Assembly: GCF_036250065.1 (NCBI RefSeq)
Contig: NZ_CP109199.1
Span: 3,038,001-3,102,000 of the forward strand
DNA length: 64,000 nt
Direction of reading: 5' to 3'
Source of the DNA: Micromonospora sp. NBC_01699
GTDB lineage: Bacteria > Actinomycetota > Actinomycetes > Mycobacteriales > Micromonosporaceae
Shown here piece after piece: positions 28,896-53,674 of this stretch (positions are counted from its first letter, which is position 1; every line of letters starts with the position of its first letter). The notes under the pieces are model-generated. The model saw nothing but the letters and a program-made list of their open reading frames with translations. It did not search any database and had not been told where the DNA came from. Made by a program: the position numbers and the translations under genes.

Positions 28896-30323
<1,428 letters not shown>

Positions 30324-30328
30324 ACCCT

Positions 30329-30365
30329 CGGGTACGGCGACCGGGCCACCCGGTCGCCGTACCCG
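30329..30365. terminator. 17-bp perfect hairpin between convergent genes
   Basis: Arms 30329-30345 and 30349-30365 are perfectly complementary over 17 bp with a CCA loop. The element lies 6 bases after the GH1 stop and 36 before the sigma-factor stop. It is the tightest hairpin of the window and almost surely terminates both transcripts. Confidence 0.8.
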
Positions 30366-30400
30366 GTCCGGCTGTGTCGCCCCGGCACCCGTACCGGTGA

Positions 30401-31663
30401 CTACTCGGGCTCGGTCGCGGCGGCCAGGCGCTCGGTCAGGAACTCCCGCTCGGCCTCGTTCCCGGTCAACTCCAGCGCCCTGCGGTACTCGACCGCCGCC
30501 TCGTGGGCGCGACCGAGCCGTCGCAGCAGGTCCGCCTTCACCGCCGGCAGGTACTGGTACTCCGCGAGCCGGTCGTCCGACTCCAACCGCTCCACCTCGG
30601 CCAGCGCCCGCGCCGGCCCCGACACCTCGGCCAGCGCCACCGTCCGGTTCAACGCCACCACCGGCGACGGCCACACCGACAGCAGTACGTCGTACAGGGT
30701 GACTATCTGTTGCCAGTTCGTCTGCTCGTAGGTCGGCGCCTCGGCGTACAGGGCGGCGATGGCGGCCTGGAGCAGGTACCGTCCCGGTCGGCCGCCGCGC
30801 AGCCCGGCCACTATCAGGTCACCCGCCTCGGCGATCGCCGACCGGTCCCAGCGCGACCGATCCTGCTCCTCCAGCCGCAGCAACCGGCCCCGGGCGTCGA
30901 CCCGGGTGGCCCGCCGGGCGTCGGTGACCAGCAGCAGGGCGAGCAAACCCCACACGTCCCGCTCGTCGGGCATCAGCTTCCGCAGCATCCGGGTCAGATG
31001 GACCGCGCGGTCCACCAGATCCGTACGCACCAGCTCGGCGCCGGCCGGTGCCGTGTGCCCGAGGGTGAACAGTACGTGGATCACACCGAGCACCCCGGCC
31101 AGCCGTTCCGGCAGCTCGGCCGCCTTCGGCACCCGGTAGGGGATCCGGGCGACCGAGATCTTCTTCTTGGCCCGGGTCAACCGGGCGGCCATCGTCGGCT
31201 CGGACACCAGGAACGCGCGGGCGATGTCGGCGGTCGACACCCCGCACACCAGCCTCAGGGTGAGCGCCATCTGCGCCTCCGGCGCCAACGCCGGGTGACA
31301 GCACATGAAGATCAGCCGCAGCCGCTCGTCCGGTACGACGTCCGTCGGCTCCTCGGCAACCGGCACGTCCACCTCCAACGATTCCTCGGGCTCGACCAGC
31401 AACGGCAGCTTGGCGCGAAACACCTGCTCCCGCCGGATCGCGTCCATCGCCCGACGCTTGGCGGTGGTGGTGAGCCAGGCCGCCGGATTGGCCGGGATCC
31501 CGTGCCGGGCCCAGCCGGTCAGCGCCGCCGCGTACGCCTCCTGCACGCACTCCTCGGCCAGGTCCAGGTCCCGCGCGACCCGCGCCGTCGCGGCGAGCAC
31601 CAGGGCCCACTCGCTCCCGTGCGCCTCCGCGACGGCCGCCCGTACGTCCTCCCGGTCCGTCAT
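30401..31663 (-). CDS. ECF sigma factor with C-terminal TPR-like extension (ECF42 type)
   Basis: A 420-residue protein: sigma region 2 at about 10-80 (E-C-V-Q-E-A-Y-A-A-A-L, then W-L-T-T-T-A-K-R-R-A-M-D), sigma region 4 at about 105-165 (L-I-F-M-C-C-H-P-A-L ... V-S-T-A-D-I-A-R-A-F-L-V-S-E-P-T-M), and a long C-terminal extension of DUF6596/TPR character (about 180-415). This is the architecture of ECF42-type sigma factors, which lack an anti-sigma factor and are linked to small YCII/DGPF proteins. Such a gene lies directly upstream. In that group the extension itself is thought to regulate activity. The ATG at 31663 is the last of four closely spaced ATGs in a 20-bp repeat, each preceding one opening a seven-codon mini-ORF. 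Confidence 0.92.
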   Translation of the reverse strand: MTDREDVRAAVAEAHGSEWALVLAATARVARDLDLAEECVQEAYAAALTGWARHGIPANPAAWLTTTAKRRAMDAIRREQVFRAKLPLLVEPEESLEVDVPVAEEPTDVVPDERLRLIFMCCHPALAPEAQMALTLRLVCGVSTADIARAFLVSEPTMAARLTRAKKKISVARIPYRVPKAAELPERLAGVLGVIHVLFTLGHTAPAGAELVRTDLVDRAVHLTRMLRKLMPDERDVWGLLALLLVTDARRATRVDARGRLLRLEEQDRSRWDRSAIAEAGDLIVAGLRGGRPGRYLLQAAIAALYAEAPTYEQTNWQQIVTLYDVLLSVWPSPVVALNRTVALAEVSGPARALAEVERLESDDRLAEYQYLPAVKADLLRRLGRAHEAAVEYRRALELTGNEAEREFLTERLAAATEPE

Positions 31664-31723
31664 CGCTCTACCCGGTCCGTCATGCGTCCACCCGGTCCGT
31701 CATGCGTCCACCCGGTCCGTCAT
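31660..31723 (-). other. Chain of three overlapping seven-codon mini-ORFs
   Basis: Read on the minus strand, each repeat copy carries ATG, six more codons and TGA, with the TGA overlapping the next ATG as ATGA. They run 31723-31700 (MTDRVDA), 31703-31680 (MTDRVDA) and 31683-31660 (MTDRVER). The last overlaps the ATG of the sigma gene at 31663, whose own N-terminus is MTDREDV. Each unit also contains GGTGGA or GGTAGA at 4-9 bases before the next ATG. Translation of the sigma gene could thus depend on serial termination and restart. Confidence 0.5.
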
Positions 31724-31740
31724 GCGTCCACCCGGTCCGT
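31661..31740 (-). repeat. 20-bp tandem repeat upstream of the sigma gene
   Basis: On the plus strand CATGCGTCCACCCGGTCCGT occurs three times, perfectly, at 31681-31700, 31701-31720 and 31721-31740. A fourth copy with four mismatches lies at 31661-31680, and a fifth, diverged copy (31641-31660) is the first part of the sigma gene. The unit evidently arose by duplication of the sigma translation start. Confidence 0.9.
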
Positions 31741-32102
31741 CAGCGCCGCGCCGGCGGTACGGTGGGAAAGCCGGCCGCCACCGGACGTACCTCGACGCCG
31801 CCGCCCTGCTGGGTGGCGGGGTTGCGGCGGGCGATCTCCAGGGCGGCGTCCAGGTCGGGTGCCTCGATCACGTAGAAGCCGGCGACGACCTCCTTGGCGT
31901 CGAGGAACGGGCCGTCCGTCACGACGTCACCGTGGACCGAGGTCGCCGTGGTGCTCGGCTCCAGCGCGTACGCCGCGAGCATGGTCCCGCCGAACCGCTC
32001 CACGTCCTCCCCGTGCCGGTCGTGTGCCTGCCGCTCCTGCGGCGTCAGGTCGGCGGCGTCGGCCGGGGCCTTCGCGAACAGCAGGATCGCGTACTGGGCC
32101 AT
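31740..32102 (-). CDS. YCII-related (DGPF) family protein
   Basis: A 120-residue YCII/DGPF-type protein with a ferredoxin-like alpha/beta fold. Visible family marks are M-A-Q-Y-A-I-L-L-F at the N-terminus, the F-G-G-T-M-L-A-A-Y-A-L segment, V-T-D-G-P-F-L-D-A-K-E-V-V-A-G-F-Y-V-I-E-A (the D-G-P-F motif) and A-L-E-I-A-R-R-N-P. These proteins are the standard genomic companions of ECF42 sigma factors and are probable targets or modulators; their biochemical role is unsettled. GGAGAAACACG precedes the ATG. The stop lies in a fifth, partial copy of the 20-bp repeat, and the sigma gene follows in the same direction. Confidence 0.9.
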   Translation of the reverse strand: MAQYAILLFAKAPADAADLTPQERQAHDRHGEDVERFGGTMLAAYALEPSTTATSVHGDVVTDGPFLDAKEVVAGFYVIEAPDLDAALEIARRNPATQQGGGVEVRPVAAGFPTVPPARR

Positions 32103-32220
32103 CGTGTTTCTCCAATCGGGTCCGGGTTCGGGTCGCCCCACACCTCTACGTCGAACGGCCGACACCGAACTCGACAGCTCCCGACCAGGTCGGGAAACAT
32201 CCTCCGTTCGACACCGTGAC

Positions 32221-32592
32221 TCAGCACGTCGAGTGCAGCAACGCCCCGACCGCAACCGATGCCGCCAGCTCGTTGTACATCCGTACCGCCTCGCTGCTCT
32301 CCCGGACGTGTACGGCGACGCCCCTGCTCCGCAGCAGGTCGAGTGTCTCGACCATCACCCCGAGCCGTTGCTCCATCCCGACTCCGAGGACGACGACCGT
32401 GGCGCCGTTGTCAACGATTTCCGCCACGTCGGCCGGTTGGATGCCGGGTGAGTGGCCGGTGCCCGTCTCCGACCAGTCCCAGGCACGGCCGCCGCCCGGG
32501 TAGAGCTTGGCGTCCTTCACCGTACCCAGGCCCTCGACCTTGATCTCGCCCCAGGAGATGGCGGTGACCAACGGTGACTTTCGCTCTGTCAT
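32221..32592 (-). CDS. Mth938-like domain protein
   Basis: A 123-residue protein of the Mth938/AAMDC-like fold (also seen in NDUFAF3-type proteins). Characteristic parts: I-S-W-G-E-I-K-V-E-G near the N-terminus, K-D-A-K-L-Y-P-G-G-G-R-A-W-D-W, the G-T-G-H-S-P-G-I loop, V-V-V-L-G-V-G-M and the C-terminal A-V-R-M-Y-N-E-L. No enzymatic activity is established for bacterial members. It is the upstream member of a leftward group with the YCII and sigma genes, separated from them by 118 bases. It is divergent from the DinB-like gene at 32711. Confidence 0.85.
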   Translation of the reverse strand: MTERKSPLVTAISWGEIKVEGLGTVKDAKLYPGGGRAWDWSETGTGHSPGIQPADVAEIVDNGATVVVLGVGMEQRLGVMVETLDLLRSRGVAVHVRESSEAVRMYNELAASVAVGALLHSTC

Positions 32593-32710
32593 GACCAGAA
32601 CTGTGCCAGATGCGTGGCGACGCCGACGGGGAGTAGTCGATCTGGCTCTGTGCGTACGGATGTGGTTGTCTGCTCTCCGCAGGTATTCATCATCATCGAG
32701 GAGATTTGCC

Positions 32711-53489: not shown

Positions 53490-53587
53490 GTGCCGATCGT
53501 GGCGCTCCGCCGCCCGACCGACCCGGATCTTCACGCGTTCACCACGCCCGGCCCGGCTATCCCGACGCCTTCTTGACGCCGCCGTGG

Positions 53588-53674
53588 CACCGGCATCGGC
53601 ATCAGCACCGGCATCGGCATCGGCATCGGCATCGGCATCAGCATCAGCACCGGCACCGGCAATCGCACCGGCTC
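53588..53674. repeat. Hexanucleotide (GGCATC-like) tandem repeat
   Basis: About 87 bases made of GGCATC/AGCACC/AGCATC-type hexamers, with four exact GGCATC copies in a row near 53611-53634. It lies between the SulP-CA gene (stop 53726) and the start of the RAM-domain gene, that is, in the upstream region of the lysA operon. On the plus strand it would encode an Ala/Ser-rich run, but no gene supports that frame. Confidence 0.8.

Follow-up and report, generated by a model that had tools for sequence, protein, structure and literature searches.

The MIRUs of mycobacteria are repeat units of some 50–100 bp that belong to one shared sequence family; the MIRU paper is that of Supply et al. (1997), and the locus ETR-D is a MIRU locus. 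The ORF carried by the MIRU unit is coupled to the following gene at −4 nt (PMC12548453), the MIRUs at senX3-regX3 are arranged in tandem and differ in copy number between BCG strains (PMC9392950), and the repeats at ETR-D measure 77 and 53 bp (PMC2640374). Restart at an adjacent stop is also familiar from overlapping gene pairs of the ATGA and TGATG types, the coupling of which was tested in E. coli and Haloferax and found in all but one E. coli pair (PMC6728339). The bicistronic design leaders of synthetic biology use a short ORF to hand ribosomes to the next start (PMC12548453), and repeat-driven phase variation involves slippage-prone repeats at genes (PMC3711429).

The locus described here, a 20-bp tandem array between a YCII-domain gene and an ECF42-type sigma factor gene of Micromonospora, shares with MIRUs a short ORF in each unit that overlaps the next ORF by 4 nt, a tandem arrangement, and a unit length of 2 mod 3, as are both ETR-D lengths. 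It differs in that its unit is 20 bp long and copies the start of the adjacent sigma gene, whereas MIRUs are described as apparently mobile; because the unit copies the neighboring gene's own start, the array was presumably born in place. By size and origin it is not a true MIRU. The ATGA-type overlap and the presumed restart step are common to overlapping gene pairs as well, but a single restart joins two genes there, whereas the array strings several together through mini-ORFs; unlike bicistronic design leaders, it is natural and tandem. In contrast to repeat-driven phase variation, no copy number at the array shifts the sigma gene out of frame, and since every unit with an ATG closes with a TGA and a fresh start, with the sigma gene starting behind the array, it is not a phase-variable repeat. 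The initial annotation of this DNA had known of no described example. The mycobacterial MIRUs, with their short ORF coupled at −4 and their variable copy number, are a published precedent for the principle. No paper describing the array class was recognized among the open-licence papers covered on tandem stop-start arrays, coupling, and MIRUs.

The array and its flanking genes

The window is a stretch of 64,000 nt from Micromonospora sp. NBC_01699 (GCF_036250065.1, NZ_CP109199.1 positions 3,038,001-3,102,000), the genome of which is assembled as one contig. The array lies on the minus strand between the YCII-domain and sigma genes, and Tandem Repeats Finder assigns it a period of 20, 4.9 copies, 92% matches, and a score of 166. 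Its features are as follows.

31740..32102, minus strand: YCII-domain gene, 120 aa with ATG 32102 as the chosen start; stop TGA at 31742-31740, within copy 1 (sequence)
31645..31742, minus strand: 20-bp tandem array, 4.9 copies (Tandem Repeats Finder)
31723..31742, minus strand: copy 1, containing the YCII stop, with CTGA in place of ATGA (sequence)
31727..31733, minus strand: SD-like GGGTGGA before the ATG of mini-ORF 1 (anti-SD duplex −5.9 kcal/mol; putative function)
31707-31713 and 31687-31693, minus strand: GGGTGGA repeated in the next two copies (sequence)
31700..31723, minus strand: mini-ORF 1, MTDRVDA, stop overlapping the next ATG as ATGA (sequence)
31680..31703, minus strand: mini-ORF 2, MTDRVDA, ATGA overlap (sequence)
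31660..31683, minus strand: mini-ORF 3, MTDRVER, stop overlapping the sigma ATG (sequence)
31667..31673, minus strand: SD-like GGGTAGA before the sigma ATG (anti-SD duplex −5.0 kcal/mol; putative function)
30401..31663, minus strand: ECF42-type sigma factor gene, uninterrupted reading frame of 420 aa (PF04542, PF08281, PF20239)

ECF42 sigma factors are characterized by sigma2 and sigma4 domains and a TPR-rich C-terminal extension of ~200 residues (PMC8999054). The sigma protein, which has relatives of up to 80% identity, possesses the expected domains and the C-terminal extension, with no TPR family hit at E 0.001 and with domain matches to general Pfam families. Directly upstream lies the neighbor expected of an ECF42 gene, a YCII-domain gene (Pfam PF03795, E 2.2e-13 with a query that had one extra upstream codon).

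Copies 1–3 of the five are identical (TGACGGACCGGGTGGACGCA), copy 4 differs from them at 4 sites, and copy 5 consists of the sigma gene's own first codons (MTDRED...). Copies 2–4 begin with ATGA and encode MTDRVDA, MTDRVDA, and MTDRVER, with 4-nt ATGA overlaps at 31703-31700, 31683-31680, and 31663-31660. The first mini-ORF begins 16 nt past the YCII stop, so that the two lack a −4 coupling. SD-like sites were scored as duplex energies against an anti-SD string. The three minus-strand mini-ORFs proposed in the initial annotation, together with their overlaps, peptides, and the sigma start at 31663, can be read directly in the sequence, and the SD-like motif that it saw in each unit is GGGTGGA (−5.9) or GGGTAGA (−5.0 kcal/mol). 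The self-ending, self-restarting character it ascribed to the unit is likewise borne out by every ATG-bearing copy.

The pattern ATGA-N16-ATGA-N16-ATGA occurs in the 8.28-Mb genome at this site only (two overlapping hits), and the reversed control gave 0 hits; the array is therefore not a chance occurrence. As regards dispersal, the same search for the tandem pattern places the 20-bp ATGA array nowhere in its own genome other than the window site. Elsewhere in the window, a hexamer repeat (GGCATC, 12.7 copies, 53586-53661) lies just beyond the stop of an 855-aa minus-strand ORF that appears, by eye, to combine transporter and carbonic-anhydrase-like parts.

Direct repeats upstream of a regulator gene could also serve as an operator, a promoter, or a site bound by a regulator on DNA or RNA, with the mini-ORFs incidental, and the TAACTGA repeats before start codons in Beggiatoaceae, proposed to be binding sites of a post-transcriptional regulator (PMC4679880), offer a parallel. 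Against this reading, no promoter or intrinsic terminator was found in 30300-32700 by a search covering sigma-70-like promoters, 31200-32600 gave no Rfam match, and the RNA structure at the array is ordinary (z +1.10). The recurrent arrays considered below moreover share start, stop, and phase, but their units look unrelated by eye. A binding element is thus regarded as very improbable.

ECF42 relatives and a sister species

Relatives of the sigma protein at E 1e-140 are present in 79 of 300 family genomes, with loci listed for 30 of the matches, and the genus is represented by three genomes. Eighty named loci were drawn in as well; 134 loci were aligned, of which 119 were distinct, the window locus included. 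A motif identified the YCII end in 88 of these 119 ECF42-like loci, which were scored; the other 31, where it was not recognizable, were left out. An in-frame overlap between the YCII stop and the sigma start (NTGA) is seen in 72 of the 88, with ATG at 37 of the overlaps, GTG at 34, and TTG at 1, and the SDs are weak (median −1.7 kcal/mol, with 8% reaching −4 or lower). Because so many loci overlap in frame with weak SDs, the coupled YCII-sigma junction is probably ancestral. The 16 loci without the NTGA overlap include the window locus, three TGATG overlaps (L082, L099, and L101, by eye), and several short gaps. The YCII stop of the window reads CTGA without an overlapping ATG, so at this stop the two genes do not form a coupled overlapping pair. 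At the window locus, the junction has been amplified in tandem, with SD-like starts.

Between −200 and +90 of the aligned start, an array of the window kind is absent from all of the other 118 distinct ECF42 loci. Conservation of the array among ECF42 loci is accordingly rejected, with one carrier among 119. The copy-number comparison between orthologs that the initial annotation had suggested thus removes a conserved ECF42 role for the unit and leaves the relay itself untouched.

Five other ECF42 loci have nearby tandem repeats, all with periods that are multiples of three.

ECF42-locus repeats: L062, 9 bp; L086, 9 bp; L070, 12 bp; L098, 18 bp; L106, 18 bp

The repeats in L062, L086, L098, and L106 overlap the aligned N-terminus, and that in L070 lies 49-89 bases upstream. 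Taken with the window array, these repeats indicate that the YCII-sigma junction is prone to tandem duplication. Phases 0 and 2 are represented among the six junction repeats and phase 1 is absent, with six being too few for a test. L098 is the ECF42 locus of Micromonospora zingiberis, where ~6.5 copies of the 18-bp repeat begin 95 bases ahead of the aligned start and run 21 bases beyond it, into the aligned N-terminus.

Another member of the genus, G002, has a YCII gene with 87% DNA identity to that of the window. The gene is followed by GGCTGACGGACCGGGT, after which homology ends, and GCTGACGGACCGGGT, corresponding to 13 bases of the first unit, is retained at the position of copy 1. Homology to the window returns ten bases beyond the sigma stop, at window 30391. 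The sigma gene is missing from G002, where ~2.1 kb with other ORFs takes its place (L152 3972-6118; among them 413 aa on the minus strand and 251 aa on the plus strand) and the YCII gene is orphaned. The remaining stump reads CTGA and GGGT, as in the extra unit, where the sigma coding copy has ATGA and GGGA. Given this match, the extra copy is probably older than the split between G002 and the window species, a dating that rests on two bases.

Unit length at gene starts across genomes

The 20-bp ATGA pattern has matches in 48 of 354 family genomes, many of them tandem, with units that look unrelated to one another. Their contexts include junctions where the first unit contains the end of the upstream ORF and the last ATG serves as the start of the downstream one, and the phase of unit length was therefore tested with spacings of 16, 17, 19, 22, and 23 bp beside 20 bp in 183 Micromonosporaceae genomes. 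Matches of any kind were found in 38 genomes for 16 bp, 46 for 17 bp, 17 for 19 bp, 25 for 22 bp, and 20 for 23 bp. The 21-bp (phase 0) pattern matches in 164 of the 183, with the matches listed swamped by non-tandem ones, and the census covers phases 1 and 2.

Arrays were kept at ≥75% identical units, and their flanks were scored by a codon-usage model trained on the long ORFs of the loci. A start array was defined as one whose boundary ATG starts a same-strand coding region, and both strands of one array were merged in the final count; with strands unmerged, start arrays number 37/93 (2 mod 3) and 5/45 (1 mod 3), and non-start arrays 56 and 40. Loci from genomes beyond G182 were left out of the 20-bp comparison, as were L295 and L301 (true unit 11 bp) from the 22-bp set, the 16- and 17-bp matches judged non-tandem by eye, and a 16-bp match at a contig end of G023 duplicating the unit of another; five phase-1 arrays with <120 bases of downstream flank were set aside. 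The 16-bp match of G072 passes the 75% threshold and was counted as non-start. The excluded L295 and L301 have 11-bp ATGA units (2 mod 3), seen via the 22-bp search. Start arrays were distributed as follows.

Start arrays, 2 mod 3: 17 bp, 26/53; 20 bp, 6/21; 23 bp, 5/12
Start arrays, 1 mod 3: 16 bp, 5/31; 19 bp, 0/8; 22 bp, 0/6

The main new result is a phase preference across many junctions. Among classifiable arrays of the 183 genomes, short-flank arrays excluded, 37/86 with units of 2 mod 3 are start arrays vs 5/40 with units of 1 mod 3 (Fisher p 5.7e-4), which agrees with the claim of the initial annotation that a change in copy number would never break the sigma reading frame. The raw numbers of start arrays, 37 vs 5, give a binomial p of 4e-7 on the assumption of equal opportunity for both phases, and non-start arrays number 49 vs 35 (p 0.16). 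By pairs, 17 vs 16 bp gives p 0.009, with 20 vs 19 bp (p 0.29) and 23 vs 22 bp (p 0.11) not significant. The direction was the same throughout 18 settings of identity, score, and flank length, all with unmerged strands and the last ATG only (p 3e-5 to 0.025). In the shifted-start control for phase 2, a start displaced from the last ATG by one base occurs in 0 and by two bases in 4 of 93 cases, vs 37/93. Where an array precedes same-strand coding sequence, the boundary ATG is its open in-frame start in 42/48 (2 mod 3) and 5/11 (1 mod 3) cases. The 37 phase-2 start arrays are spread over 25 genomes and 18 genera, as counted from the tables. The phase rule is not strict, as five start arrays are 1 mod 3, and in one of these, L415, the in-unit stop lies one base before the next ATG in a relay-like manner.

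Together with five further 20-bp ones from the 354-genome search, the 37 make up a total of 42 start arrays, with copy numbers from 2.3 to 9.3. Their mini-ORFs are open to the boundary TGA in 100 of 109 cases, and 8 of the 9 remaining end at TGATGA with a one-base overlap (own reading). The mean SD energy before the last ATG is −5.08 in start arrays vs −2.15 in the rest, a difference that supports the calling of starts. Compared with shuffled units, the SDs of start arrays are only slightly better (mean z −0.33), and they are partly due to the fact that gene starts have SDs anyway. A Pfam search on ten of the 42 junctions matched all 20 proteins to families, the junctions including histidine kinase and response regulator, ABC ATPase and permease, MoxR and DUF58, and CopCD and DUF1775.

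At one locus, 74% identical between species over 3.2 kb, G058 carries a 20-bp array and G104 a 17-bp start array, which suggests that arrays arose independently at one place; G104 is also the relative with a 9-copy array. The G058 array was counted outside the start class, since its last mini-ORF (18 codons) ends at a further ATGA. In a class sample reaching beyond the family, 38 of 181 genomes have 17-bp matches, its two family members having none, and the 30 listed loci contain 21 arrays (two counted on both strands), of which 10 are start arrays and 7 strict junctions. At L404, a response-regulator-like start has a 17-bp array, and the stop of the upstream ORF falls in an ATG-less copy roughly one unit ahead of the first ATGA, much as in the window. 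G503, of the same order, holds three 17-bp arrays whose units look alike (GATCGAGCC-like) and may form a dispersed MIRU-like family, and the 17-bp ATGA array of L336 (G097) reaches 15.4 copies between flanks that do not score as coding.

These counts bear on the idea that the array is a neutral by-product of slippage, in which sigma translation would rely solely on the SD-like site just ahead of 31663, while the additional copies would be harmless debris that neither pass on ribosomes nor regulate anything. Consistent with debris are the singularity of the array among 119 distinct ECF42-like loci, the three identical copies, which suggest recent expansion, the SD-like site of the sigma ATG itself (−5.0), and the many arrays of the ATGA pattern away from gene starts, where most 20-bp arrays lie (6/21 are start arrays). 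Silent copies should nevertheless make length modulo three irrelevant, yet starts number 37 vs 5 and arrays elsewhere 49 vs 35, and neutral debris is considered unlikely.

A putative ribosome relay and its significance

The preference has a simple arithmetic. With a unit of 2 mod 3, the chain stays intact at any copy number because each ATG opens a frame that the first boundary TGA after it closes. In a 1 mod 3 unit, the frame runs past one boundary to stop two copies on, so that parity matters, and with 0 mod 3, it meets no boundary TGA and the gene can acquire an N-terminal extension. The phase preference therefore fits what would be expected of a termination-reinitiation relay that tolerates any copy number. 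Selection for keeping the coupling would be its cause, and a seeding bias, in which in-frame Met codons of the upstream gene yield ATGA at 2 mod 3, may add to it.

For the window locus, the preferred reading, which we hold to be fairly likely, is a locally amplified start cassette that would relay ribosomes from YCII to sigma by termination-reinitiation. A cassette made up of an SD-like site, an ATG, six more codons, and a TGA overlapping the next ATG would have been tandemly amplified in place at the YCII-sigma junction. Ribosomes finishing YCII, or entering at any SD-bearing copy, would make a peptide of seven residues, terminate where the TGA overlaps the following ATG, restart there, and pass from each copy to the next until the sigma start. 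The unit of 2 mod 3 would leave this relay intact at every copy number, so that slippage would be tolerated. We infer that ribosomes would relay through the array and that the extra SD-bearing entry points would feed rather than starve the sigma gene. Against the relay, the YCII stop has no overlapping ATG, and other ECF42 loci manage without an array.

The initial annotation had gone further and viewed the array as a copy-number rheostat, in which some fraction of ribosomes would be lost or gained at every restart and slippage would grade sigma output without ever turning it off. The frame is indeed kept at any copy number, start arrays vary in copy number, from 2.3 to 9.3, and at senX3-regX3 copy number varies between BCG strains (PMC9392950), but the array is absent from the other ECF42 loci scored, and a rheostat appears quite unlikely. 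The reading as a relay is retained, and the array is best classified as a locally born, very short MIRU-like relay and a member of a recurrent class.

In broader terms, it is tentatively conceivable, although doubtful, that actinomycete operons harbor a class of micro-MIRUs, namely widespread and repeatedly, independently arising SD-ATG-TGA cassettes of 17-23 bp at gene starts, which would be held at 2 mod 3 by selection for an unbroken relay, would collect ribosomes, and would allow slippage to tune the product ratios of neighboring genes without ever turning them off. From a single oddity, the phase preference leads to a testable rule: tandem repeats at coupled gene starts should favor 2 mod 3, because only then does the relay survive every change in copy number. 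If upheld in a full census, this would amount to sequence evidence that reinitiation at overlapping starts affects fitness, and it would predict mutable, graded rather than on-off expression at operon junctions, including those of sigma factors and two-component systems.
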